Origin: Desulfomonile tiedjei DSM 6799
GTDB taxonomy: Bacteria; Desulfobacterota; Desulfomonilia; Desulfomonilales; Desulfomonilaceae
Reading direction: 5' to 3'
Assembly: GCF_000266945.1 (NCBI RefSeq)
Contig: NC_018025.1
Coordinates: forward strand, 62,001-126,000
Length of the DNA stretch: 64,000 bases
Positions within the stretch are counted from its first letter, which is position 1, and each line of letters begins with the position of its first letter. Position numbers and translations under genes: made by a program. Of this stretch, positions 27,409 through 33,459 are shown one piece after another. The notes under the pieces are model-generated. The model was given only the letters and a program-made list of their open reading frames with translations, was not told the origin of the DNA and did no database searches.

Positions 27409-27520
27409 TAATTTCCGACAGCGATAGCGCTTTCGCTTTGCTGAATGACACTATTCGTGATAAGCTGAGTCAAGTTTCCGGTCAATAGTATAAACACTTC
27501 CGAATTATGAGGGAATCTCC

Positions 27521-30500
27521 TTGAAACTCGCATGCGCCAGAGGAACTCTCGTACAAGCGGCTGTTTGCCTCACATTGGTATTCCTTACCGTACAATTCGC
27601 CAGCGCAAAAGAAAACCTTCCTGAAGCGGTGCAGATTTCCGCGCCGGACGGACTGTCTACGAACATTTACAGCCACCCTGAGAAAAAATCCGATCTCCTC
27701 GGGATCGCACTTCAGGGAGACATTCTCGAGGTCCGCGGAGTTCAAGGCGAGTTTTACGAAATCCGACTGTCCGTGGACAAGAAGGTATCCGGTTTTGTGC
27801 TTCGCGATCACACAAGCCCCTATGAGGACACTGATAAGAAATCCGTTCTGACTCCCACTGTTATAGCTATAGGTGCCGTGATTGCCTTGATAGCCTTGGC
27901 AGCAGGATTTCTGGTGTTCAGAGCTCGAAAGACCCATGAAACCGCTCAGCAAGTAGCGTCAATCCCCGCTTCCATAAAAAGAGGCGAAGAGTTGTTCAGA
28001 GCCGGAGAATACGGCGAAGCTATCCGCGAATTCAGGAGCTATATTTCCCTTCAGGGTGGTGAGGTCCGGAATCCCGACGTGTACAGGCGCTTGACGGTAT
28101 GCTATCAGAATACGAATGAAATCCGGGAGGCCGCTCTTGCATGGGAGAAAATGAGAAGTCTGGGAGGGCTGAAGAACCTGGACGACTACAGCCTTGGCGT
28201 GGAACTCATGAGCGCCCTGGGTCGCGAGGCTGAGGCAGCGAATATTTACGAGCAATTGCTACAGCACGAAAATGATGAAGACAAACGTTGTGAAATCCAT
28301 AAGAAGCTTCTCGATATCTATCGACGCTTAAAAGACGGAAAAAAAGTCGTACAGCATGCAATGAAGCTGAGAACACTGGGGACCACGGATCCCAATATAC
28401 TCCCGGATACAATCCATTATCTGATTGCTGAAGGTCAAACGGATGTTGCCATCGAGAGCAACAGTCGCGAGCTTGTTGTAGAGATTTGCACGGAATTCCT
28501 GGAGGATAAGGCCCAAACGCCCGAAGCCGGAAGGATATACCTTAAAGCTCTCGAATACGACAGGACGGATCAGCGCCTCCACCGCATGCTCGCCAACATA
28601 TACAACGAGAGCGGTGATGTGAAAAGGGCCGTGAGTGAATTGACCATTCTGCATCAACTGGATAAGGATCAATCGGAGGTATACCTCGAAGAGGCTGCCA
28701 GAATTTATCTGGAGAAGAATAGAATCTCCACAGCCATTGCAGAAGGTAATCCCCTCATCATAAAGAAAATTGCTCAGCTCTATCTCGCTCGATCGGAAGT
28801 GAATCCCGAAGCCGTTGCAATTTACGAAAAAGTGCTGGAATTTCAGCCCAAGGCTGTAGGCATTAACAGAATGCTTAGTACTGTTTACCTCACCCGGGGA
28901 GAACTCGACAAATACATGAGCAAGCTACGGTTGCTGTATGAAATCGATGGTTCCAACCATGATTACCTGAGCGATCTGGCAAAATGCATTATCGATAACG
29001 ATATGATTGACGAAACCCTGAAAGAAGGGAATCGCGATCTCAATGCCAAGATAGTCAAGCAATTGATTAAACAGGGCAAGGCGACAGATACGGCGGTGAG
29101 TCTTCTTGAGAAATTGATAAGAGTCGAACCTGACAACGTTACTGTTCGGGCGGCCTTAGCAAAAGCATACGAACGAAGATCGGAAAAGGAAAAGTGCTTC
29201 GATCATGTGCTTCACATACTTCGAATTCGACCCGATGATGAAGAATTTTCCGGAATGGCCGCTTCATTGGCCGCGGAGCTGAATCGATTGCACGATTTGC
29301 CGAAAAAAGGACACCCACGAGTTCTGGTTTCTGCAGCAGAAGAGATTATCACAAGAAATATGACCGATTCTTTTGCTCGGCAAATCCTGGAACTCGCATG
29401 CGAGCATGATCCCTCCGAATTTCGTTTCTCCAGCTATCTTGGAAATCTGAAATCCGCAACCGCTGTTCCTCTCCCTCAACTGGAAGCAGCCTCCGAACCA
29501 AAGAACGAAGACAAACCGGAAATCAGACCCGAAGTCAAGCCGGCAATCAAACCGGAACCAAGGAAAAAAGCCAGTCCGGAAATTTCATCCAAGAAGGTCG
29601 CTGACCGGAAAATCGAGCCTACTCCTCCGCCAAGACCGCCTGCAGCACGGCCGAAGCCCAAGCAGCCCCCTCAGAAGGTGAAATCTCCACAAAAAACTGA
29701 AGAAATCAGGATCGAGAAGATTCACGATGCAAAGGATGTCACTGCAAAGGTCAGGTCTGCAAAAACACCGGATAGGAAAGAACAGATCGGCCCTCCTGAT
29801 GAAAAGCCTGTAATAAGAACAGAAACGCCTCGGAGCGCCCCCACAGTCGTCCCTGACCCATTGCAGAAGAAAGAAGAGAAACCTGCAGGACCTCCGCAAC
29901 AGGCGATCCGCTTTACGGATGAAGTCCTGACGGAAGAGCGCGCTGTTACCACCTTTGTTTCAGGTCATGCCAGCGGGCGAACCGGAAATGAATTCGCGAG
30001 AGAGGAGCTGCTTCTTCCCACAGCCGGAGGGTTGGCGTACAAGGAGATGGAGGCGCTAGTACAGGACGGGTGGGGCAGCATTCATGTGGGTATGGAGGTG
30101 AATACCGGCCGTCCGGTGCTCATCCGTTTATTTCGGAAAGGTATCATGGAACCTCTCGCTATGAAGGAGTTCGTGGCACAGGTTTCCGAAACGTCCTACA
30201 ATGCAGTGCATGACAACATCCTTCCCCTGGAGGAAGTCGTTCGTGGTCTCGGAGGGGCCCATGCCCTCGTGCACCCATTCTTCTCCCGCACCCTTGAGGG
30301 AGTGATGCGGGATAAGCGGCGTCCTGATCTCCCTATCAGGTTGGATATGATCCAAAAGGTGTTGAATGCGCTGGTATTCGCGCACAACTACACTGGTATG
30401 GACGGAACACCTAGAAAAACATATCACCTGCAACTCCAATCCAATCTCGTATTTGTCAGCAATGACTACAAGAGGCTGCAAATAGCAGGTTTTGGGCATT

Positions 30501-30877
30501 CCCAGATTTACAGGAATATTTTACGGCCAAAGCAACCCAGATGGCAGGATCCTGGAATGAATCCCCAGTTTATGCCGCCTGAGTTTTTCAGGTCAAAGGC
30601 GAACATCAAAGAAAAAGCAGCTGATATTTATTCATTAGGCATTCTAATCTACTACATGGCAACCGGTGAATATCCATTCGAAGGACCCGCATTCGATGAT
30701 TACAAATTTCAACATATACGAATTTTCGCGGCTCCGCCGAGACTTATAGATCCCACCATCCCCGACTGGCTGGAACCGATTATCCTGGGCTGTCTCGAAA
30801 AAGATGCTGACAAACGTTGGGACAGCGTCAAGGAAATCGCAAATGCATTCGCCAAAGGATTGAGTCATCAAACCTAA
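27521..30877 (+). CDS. SH3b-TM-TPR-pseudokinase protein
   Basis: 1118 residues from a TTG with GAGGG upstream. Order: signal-like segment (1-28); bacterial SH3-like fold (about 33-96); membrane helix (about 112-134, TVIAIGAVIALIALAAGFLV); a long helical TPR-type array (about 145-625); a Lys/Pro/Glu-rich linker (650-800); and a C-terminal protein-kinase-like domain (830-1115). Within the last, GWGSIHVG mimics the glycine loop, PPEFF is the APE motif, and DIYSLGILIYYMATGEYPF is the alpha-F region. Catalytic residues are missing: the VAIK Lys is R869, the HRD Asp is Q971, and the DFG Asp is G990. It should be a scaffold or sensor with the TPR and pseudokinase in the cytoplasm. I know no named family with this order. 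Confidence 0.85.
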   Translation: MKLACARGTLVQAAVCLTLVFLTVQFASAKENLPEAVQISAPDGLSTNIYSHPEKKSDLLGIALQGDILEVRGVQGEFYEIRLSVDKKVSGFVLRDHTSPYEDTDKKSVLTPTVIAIGAVIALIALAAGFLVFRARKTHETAQQVASIPASIKRGEELFRAGEYGEAIREFRSYISLQGGEVRNPDVYRRLTVCYQNTNEIREAALAWEKMRSLGGLKNLDDYSLGVELMSALGREAEAANIYEQLLQHENDEDKRCEIHKKLLDIYRRLKDGKKVVQHAMKLRTLGTTDPNILPDTIHYLIAEGQTDVAIESNSRELVVEICTEFLEDKAQTPEAGRIYLKALEYDRTDQRLHRMLANIYNESGDVKRAVSELTILHQLDKDQSEVYLEEAARIYLEKNRISTAIAEGNPLIIKKIAQLYLARSEVNPEAVAIYEKVLEFQPKAVGINRMLSTVYLTRGELDKYMSKLRLLYEIDGSNHDYLSDLAKCIIDNDMIDETLKEGNRDLNAKIVKQLIKQGKATDTAVSLLEKLIRVEPDNVTVRAALAKAYERRSEKEKCFDHVLHILRIRPDDEEFSGMAASLAAELNRLHDLPKKGHPRVLVSAAEEIITRNMTDSFARQILELACEHDPSEFRFSSYLGNLKSATAVPLPQLEAASEPKNEDKPEIRPEVKPAIKPEPRKKASPEISSKKVADRKIEPTPPPRPPAARPKPKQPPQKVKSPQKTEEIRIEKIHDAKDVTAKVRSAKTPDRKEQIGPPDEKPVIRTETPRSAPTVVPDPLQKKEEKPAGPPQQAIRFTDEVLTEERAVTTFVSGHASGRTGNEFAREELLLPTAGGLAYKEMEALVQDGWGSIHVGMEVNTGRPVLIRLFRKGIMEPLAMKEFVAQVSETSYNAVHDNILPLEEVVRGLGGAHALVHPFFSRTLEGVMRDKRRPDLPIRLDMIQKVLNALVFAHNYTGMDGTPRKTYHLQLQSNLVFVSNDYKRLQIAGFGHSQIYRNILRPKQPRWQDPGMNPQFMPPEFFRSKANIKEKAADIYSLGILIYYMATGEYPFEGPAFDDYKFQHIRIFAAPPRLIDPTIPDWLEPIILGCLEKDADKRWDSVKEIANAFAKGLSHQT

Positions 30878-30924: not shown

Positions 30925-31209
30925 TCAGACTGCCCACACCTCATACGTGTTTTCGTTCGTATTGTTGGTGTAATGATTCTCTTGTTCGTGTAACATAGTA
31001 ATGTAGTTGGTAAGGATTTTACAACGTTCACATGGATTATAAGCGGATTCGTGCCGAGTGACTTTTCCCTTGGAGCGGGAGGACATTTGAATTTTCAAGT
31101 CCTTAATGTCGTTATACATACGCAAACAATGCCGGATGCTCCATTTCCCCTTAAAAACTCTGCACGTAACTGCATACTCCTTAAGCCAACTTTTTTCGTC
31201 GGTCTTCAT
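30925..31209 (-). CDS. small hypothetical protein, Cys-containing
   Basis: 94 residues, basic, with CERC and two further cysteines (VTCRV, RHCLR). AGAGGA lies seven bases upstream of the ATG. No signal peptide or membrane helix. The sequence is protein-like (few low-complexity runs), and the frame ends 47 bases after the convergent pseudokinase stop. I cannot name a family. Confidence 0.5.
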   Translation of the reverse strand: MKTDEKSWLKEYAVTCRVFKGKWSIRHCLRMYNDIKDLKIQMSSRSKGKVTRHESAYNPCERCKILTNYITMLHEQENHYTNNTNENTYEVWAV

Positions 31210-32979: not shown

Positions 32980-33459
32980 ATGAAAAAATTGACATATCTT
33001 GGGATTCTTGTGTGCTGCATGATGGCGGTGACTCCGGCGCACGCTTTTCTCGATTATTTTTTCTCAGGATCTGCCAGCAGGGACGCAATCGATAATTCGG
33101 CCGTCGGGGATCTAAGGGCATGGTGGACCGGTAATCCGGCGTACCAGTTCAATCCCTACTATTCGGGTAATGCGAACCCTCAGCAACAACAACAGCAGCA
33201 ACAGCAACAAGTACCTCAATATCCTCAGCCTTCAATGCAGTTCTATCCGCCTCAGCAGGCTCCTCAGGCCGCAGGATATCCACAGCAGTTCCAGAATCCT
33301 CAGGGTGTTCCGCCGCAATACGTGCAGCAGCAGATGCCTCAGCAGCAGTATATGCCCCAGCCGCAGGGATACGGTCAGCAAATGTATCCTCCCCAGGGAT
33401 ATCAGCAGGTACCGCAACAATATCAGCAAATGGCGCCCCAAGGATATCAGGGGCAGTAG
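32980..33459 (+). CDS. secreted Gln/Pro/Tyr-rich low-complexity protein
   Basis: 159 residues. The signal peptide (1-22, cleaved after AHA) precedes 45 ordinary residues (DYFFSGSASRDAIDN, GDLRAWWTGNPAY). From residue 68 on, the chain is almost entirely Q, P, Y, G and M, beginning with a run of ten glutamines and continuing as imperfect PQGYQQ/PQQYQQ units. Such a composition is prion-like and probably disordered or adhesive outside the cytoplasm. AGGAAAGG precedes the ATG. Its TAG stop coincides with the edge of a family A element, so the original C-terminus may be lost. No relative is recognised. Confidence 0.75.
   Translation: MKKLTYLGILVCCMMAVTPAHAFLDYFFSGSASRDAIDNSAVGDLRAWWTGNPAYQFNPYYSGNANPQQQQQQQQQQVPQYPQPSMQFYPPQQAPQAAGYPQQFQNPQGVPPQYVQQQMPQQQYMPQPQGYGQQMYPPQGYQQVPQQYQQMAPQGYQGQ

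Follow-up and report, generated by a model that had tools for sequence, protein, structure and literature searches.

Gene locus and domain architecture

The window analysed here (64,000 nucleotides; C1:62001-126000 of the two-contig, 6.53-Mb Desulfomonile tiedjei DSM 6799 genome, G000) carries at 27521-30877 of its plus strand a pseudokinase gene whose reading frame stays open through 1118 codons plus stop; its features are collected in Table 1. In the orthologue alignment, GAGGGA stands at about constant spacing ahead of the start and the pattern TGAGGGAATxxCC-TTG is kept in most orthologues, and this conserved combination of GAGGGA, spacer and TTG therefore indicates that the annotated TTG start is right. 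Its neighbours are a divergent radical SAM gene on one side and a gene for a ShyA/MepM-type M23 endopeptidase on the other, with an S41 CtpA-like protease farther upstream and the Tol-Pal genes farther downstream, a location that is shared in the orthologous loci as far as the contigs reach. Two small reading frames lie nearby. A 94-aa ORF with a CxxC pair (30925-31209, minus strand) gave no Pfam or NCBIfam match and is 44-71% identical in related loci, including those without the pseudokinase, and a probably secreted 159-aa protein (32980-33459, plus strand) is retained downstream of the M23 gene, its conserved N-terminal half being followed by a Gln/Pro-rich low-complexity tail with a run of about 10 Gln.

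Table 1. Features of the pseudokinase gene (positions in the window)
Feature	Position	Strand	Basis
Shine-Dalgarno-like GAGGGA, upstream of TTG	27509..27514	+	Orthologue conservation
Whole gene, SH3b-TM-TPR-pseudokinase, 1118 aa	27521..30877	+	ORF; orthologues in seven other genomes
Signal peptide, residues 1-32	27521..27616	+	Hydrophobic segment in orthologues; model helix 3-21; end ASA, ARA or alike
SH3b-like domain, residues 35-100, predicted extracytoplasmic	27623..27820	+	SH3_3 E 5e-4; seven model strands
Membrane helix, residues 112-136, then RARK	27854..27928	+	Kyte-Doolittle peak 2.88
TPR solenoid, residues 145-642	27953..29446	+	Pfam; AF2 model; alignment
Disordered Pro/Lys-rich linker, residues 645-809	29453..29947	+	pLDDT <50; 21% identity
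TTFVS motif, residues 810-814	29948..29962	+	Conserved; strand 810-814 predicted
Pseudokinase domain, residues 836-1116	30026..30868	+	AF2; Foldseek; profile against PDB
R869, VAIK lysine position	30125..30127	+	R in 8/8 members
Q971, catalytic-loop aspartate position	30431..30433	+	Q, H or N across members
G990, DFG aspartate position	30488..30490	+	G in members, N in one

The full-length AF2 model begins with a signal helix at residues 3-21 and an SH3b-like barrel at 36-100; a further helix starts at residue 112 and passes through the membrane, the TPR solenoid extends to residue 642, and disorder up to about residue 830 precedes the kinase fold. At a pTM of 0.38, the relative placement of these domains is unreliable. 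Two hydrophobic segments, an N-terminal one with an AxA-like end and the helix at 112-136, recur in 6/7 and 7/7 of the members with a complete N-terminus, respectively. The initial annotation had derived the topology from one membrane helix; that helix was recovered, but the N-terminal hydrophobic segment is now used as well. By Pfam, TPRs and Pkinase scored above the gathering threshold in the window protein and were found in all eight members scanned, whereas SH3_3 was weak (E 5e-4, 20.6 bits against a cut-off of 27) and reached E<=0.01 in three of the eight. An outer SH3b-like domain, with a mean pairwise identity of 44% among members, is supported, its modelled fold being plausible, but its profile match is weak and below the cut-off; the receptor role initially suggested for the protein is only conjectural, the SH3b being a weak match. 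The proposed TPR arm and a scaffold-type role were supported, and the TPR core at 318-520 is the best conserved segment of the protein (66% identity). A weak match to TPR_BSK1_C was also seen. Inside the otherwise unconserved linker the TTFVS motif is conserved (orthologue loci L045-L051); it is duplicated in G002 and triplicated in G011.

Whole-genome searches found the gene in eight genomes of the taxonomic family (G000, G001, G002, G004, G006, G008, G009 and G011) and found no member in G003, G005, G007 and G010. A relative from a MAG labelled Desulfomonile tiedjei, of the same genus as the window genome, is 64-66% identical. In G005, G007 and G010 the site is empty, the radical SAM gene, small ORF and M23 gene adjoining each other with no pseudokinase remnant. 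On an rpoB tree the carriers cluster with a support of 0.64 and the non-carriers fall outside, so that a gain in the ancestor of the carriers would be the simplest reading.

A conserved kinase fold with lost catalytic residues

Structure prediction of the C-terminal domain from 15 related sequences gave a kinase fold with high confidence (AF2; pLDDT 91.2, pTM 0.89). Foldseek placed PknB (E 3.5e-18) and PknA as the best PDB neighbours of the model, and a profile of the domain against the PDB likewise retrieved PknB (E 3e-32). The domain has the Hanks-type bilobal fold and matches the Pkinase profile, but the beta3 Lys, HRD Asp and DFG Asp of active Ser/Thr kinases are replaced by R869, Q971 and G990. 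Alignment with kinases and family members located these three substitutions, already named in the initial annotation, exactly at the VAIK, HRD and DFG positions. Across the eight members including the window protein, the beta3 Lys column reads RRRRRRRR, the catalytic Asp column QQHHNHHH and the DFG Asp column GGGGGNGG (G in seven, N in one); the triad is lost in 8/8, the alignment contained no intact triad at shifted positions, and a search among the members yielded no orthologue that keeps it. Such a loss exceeds what chance would give: Lys, Asp and Asp are intact in 54 of 55 aligned kinase rows outside the pseudokinase clade described below. A single kinase outside that clade (L089, G197), with HRH/NFG for HRD/DFG, is another likely pseudokinase.

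The remaining kinase motifs are also degraded. Of the glycine loop (V847-x-D849-G850-W851-G852) only the final G-x-G is left, and the APE site reported earlier is present but reads PPE in the window protein. The metal-binding catalytic-loop Asn is L976 and the alpha-C Glu is Q887, both positions being lost or unconserved across the eight members. Conversely, H969, G992, P1020, E1021 and R1099, which stabilise the fold in kinases, show no variation among the members, and neither do D849, W851, G852 and R869. Between the two closest orthologues, dN was 0.17 for the pseudokinase, 0.19 for the TPRs and 0.62 for the linker; since dS was saturated, the dN/dS ratio was dropped and dN alone was compared. 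Judged by these alignments, the pseudokinase domain is under purifying selection, the invariant fold residues together with the low dN arguing for a conserved dead domain rather than decay. We therefore call it a pseudokinase in the evolutionary sense, the fold having been kept and the catalytic motifs lost, and catalytic inactivity would be expected from these losses. An 8-residue insertion before the catalytic loop was considered as a pseudokinase-only mark and rejected, since it also occurs in active kinases that form a group of their own.

Related pseudokinases and a proposed MglA/Roadblock link

In the kinase tree, one side of a branch with an SH-aLRT of 99 holds 23 pseudokinase sequences, comprising the SH3b-TM-TPR-pseudokinase family of the window gene (family 1), a family of zinc-ribbon pseudokinases (family 2) and eight outside TPR-pseudokinases (L070-L076, L078), which belong to further families of the phylum. 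Family 2 is the paralogous sister of family 1, and its proteins combine a pseudokinase with a zinc ribbon that was recognised by eye; its copy in the window genome encodes 471 aa (G000:C1:2879809-2881221, minus strand; L032, L174) and forms a two-gene unit with a following second zinc-ribbon gene that has a membrane helix. Its distribution equals that of family 1 except for G011, a genome that is 83% complete. Family 2 is less degraded, its catalytic residues showing graded decay across genomes, and the G002 member keeps Lys, Asp and Asp but no longer has the glycine loop or the catalytic-loop Asn. Among the outside sequences, L070 keeps Lys and DFG with HLA in the catalytic loop, and L071-L076 and L078 keep HLD, their DFG Asp being replaced by N, Y or L. 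The outside operon pseudokinases are without a membrane helix, and no SH3 match was found in the two that were scanned. Beyond the kinase domain, their TPRs are not clearly homologous to those of the window family.

The gene order Roadblock (MglB-like)-MglA-partner-pseudokinase was found in all five loci that were long enough (L139, L140, L141, L142 and L143), which come from five genomes of three families and carry TPR-pseudokinases outside the window family; in L073 and L075 the partner gene also directly precedes the pseudokinase. For L141, Pfam confirmed the Roadblock/LC7 protein and the Ras/Arf-type (MglA-type) GTPase. The window genome has a Roadblock-MglA-partner trio near C1:1646845-1649276 (MglA at C1:1648230-1648859, partner at C1:1646845-1648257) with no pseudokinase beside it, the pseudokinase gene lying about 1.55 Mb away from the MglA-partner pair. 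An MglA orthologue (84-96% identical to that of the window genome) and a partner orthologue occur in all eight pseudokinase carriers and are missing from G003, G005, G007 and G010. In genomes of the neighbouring family (f2), where this kind of pseudokinase is absent, the MglA is more distant (48-51%). Given that the carriers are possibly one clade, as the rpoB tree suggests, this co-occurrence may count as a single event. The operon order in relatives and the shared gene content are nevertheless the best available functional clue, and this genomic evidence suggests a link to the GTPase. A text search of the literature found no paper that names an MglA-pseudokinase link; in Myxococcus, the TPR protein SgmX acts together with MglA (PMC7519303).

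Two further observations concern the MglA loci. Several MglA partners (L185:6846-8258, L139:2992-5280 and L140:3672-5789) contain short, partly repeated IDxLFV-type motifs, which somewhat resemble the FVS of the linker TTFVS. The window genome also has a second MglA cluster (L187:4144-9108; G000:C1:364.1-369.1 kb) with a DUF4388-like ORF, Roadblock, MglA, a partner-like protein and a kinase whose triad is intact, with an 8-residue insertion ahead of HQD.

Proposed function, alternatives and known systems

We consider it slightly better than an even chance (about 0.52) that the protein is a catalytically dead, membrane-anchored scaffold, most likely an effector or adaptor of an MglA-type polarity GTPase, its relation to the fourth gene of the Roadblock-MglA-partner-pseudokinase operons making this the likeliest job. 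In such a scaffold, the SH3b-like domain would lie in the periplasm and one helix would cross the inner membrane, while the TPR solenoid and the pseudokinase would be cytoplasmic, and the kinase fold would have been retained as a binding surface after the loss of phosphotransfer. The TPRs, the pseudokinase or both would bind MglA or the partner protein, with the membrane and SH3b part holding the assembly at the envelope, where it might contact the wall and be close to sites of peptidoglycan remodelling. As a site of regulation, the TTFVS motif would be the strongest candidate. More tentatively, TPR-pseudokinases of MglA/Roadblock switches could constitute an undescribed class, of which the Desulfomonile branch entered the membrane, gained an SH3b-like domain and joins the polarity switch to the wall. 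Bacterial pseudokinases are common, but hardly any has been assigned a partner; in this case the gene neighbourhoods give a concrete candidate, and the function is directly testable. If true, the proposal would join a bacterial small GTPase to a pseudokinase scaffold, a pairing otherwise known from eukaryotic signalling.

An MglA-independent scaffold for wall homeostasis, in which SH3b would sense peptidoglycan and the TPR-pseudokinase part, much like the MviN or EssB pseudokinases, would recruit wall enzymes or control them, appears unlikely to us. The flanking CtpA, radical SAM, M23 and Tol-Pal genes, shared by the orthologous loci, would suit it, as would the control of M23 endopeptidases by CtpA with the TPR protein LbcA in Pseudomonas (PMC6050968), but LbcA is an outer-membrane lipoprotein whereas the TPRs here are predicted to be cytoplasmic, and the relatives are located in MglA operons. 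We rejected the M23 adjacency as functional proof: gene order around the site is unchanged in genomes that lack the pseudokinase, so adjacency says little on wall function, and a cell-wall link of the pseudokinase is weak. Growth of Desulfomonile is polar and proceeds from the collar, and a text search of the literature found no text on this growth mode. Cells of the genus have a peculiar cell-wall collar (PMC7773648), and a link of the pseudokinase to the collar or to polar growth is only a lead.

That the domain is a nucleotide-binding switch or an atypical ATP-using enzyme comparable to SelO or SidJ, with R869 taking over the nucleotide contact, is improbable. The invariance of R869, D849, W851 and G852 would agree with it, and the DYD family, with R at the beta3 site, has been modelled with ATP; however, the window family has no acidic residue at DFG, no conserved catalytic-loop Asn and an unconserved alpha-C Glu, and SelO and SidJ retain the beta3 Lys and DFG Asp (PMC12599244). 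A comparably small chance falls to a phospho-reader scaffold, in which an active kinase of the genome would phosphorylate the TTFVS threonines for an FHA protein to read, the pseudokinase gating access. Amid an otherwise unconserved linker the motif is conserved, two orthologues carry it in tandem copies, the window genome encodes active kinases, and after the MglA-partner pair (L185) comes a protein that looks FHA-like by eye, but the predicted strand at TTFVS could be a docking segment. FHA motif spacing has T at 0 and V at +3, and TTFVS would suit such a reader. The notion of a decaying, functionless gene, to which the lost catalytic residues might point, has next to no chance, being refuted by the intact orthologue frames, the low dN at saturated dS and the conserved start signal.

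Compared with known systems, the effector or adaptor proposed here has several partial counterparts. A survey of bacterial pseudokinases describes the families ActPs1-3, GLW, CP1, DYD and DLHK (O'Boyle et al. 2025, PMC12599244) and mentions TPR or SH3 domains for none of these seven. Like the window protein, they combine a Hanks-type fold with lost catalytic motifs, but their taxa differ, and motif, membrane position and partner domains misfit, so that we rejected membership in them; the survey totals 42 families, and the window family may be included there. DYD shares the beta3 Lys-to-Arg exchange with R869 but has DYD for DFG and occurs in actinobacteria and firmicutes, whereas the window family, from another phylum, has GFG, GLG or NLG. 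Examples of DLHK and CP1 have G or W at the DFG Asp, comparable to G990; yet DLHK keeps the HRD Asp, lacks a membrane region and carries helicase/nuclease domains, and CP1 is linked to a COG3899 ATPase and also lacks a membrane region, whereas the window protein has Q971, a membrane helix and neither a helicase nor an ATPase match. GLW has GLW at HRD and a membrane region after the kinase domain, as opposed to HLQ and a helix before the domain, and ActPs3/MviN has a MurJ flippase part and the motifs VALT and Lsidhpsr, as opposed to VLIR and a single membrane helix that follows the signal peptide (PMC12599244). EssB/YukC of type VII secretion is, as here, a membrane-anchored scaffold pseudokinase with all motifs degraded, but its pseudokinase (residues 9-211) precedes the membrane helix, it has no TPR, and it belongs to a Firmicutes secretion apparatus. 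MviN/MurJ likewise places a dead kinase domain on a cell-envelope membrane protein, in its case a multi-pass flippase. SgmX of Myxococcus xanthus is a long TPR protein working with MglA; it shares only generic TPR similarity with the window protein and is not known to have a kinase domain. The plant brassinosteroid signalling kinases (BSK), several of which are pseudokinases, also combine a kinase-like domain with TPRs, but they are eukaryotic, carry a lipid anchor and have the order kinase-TPR.
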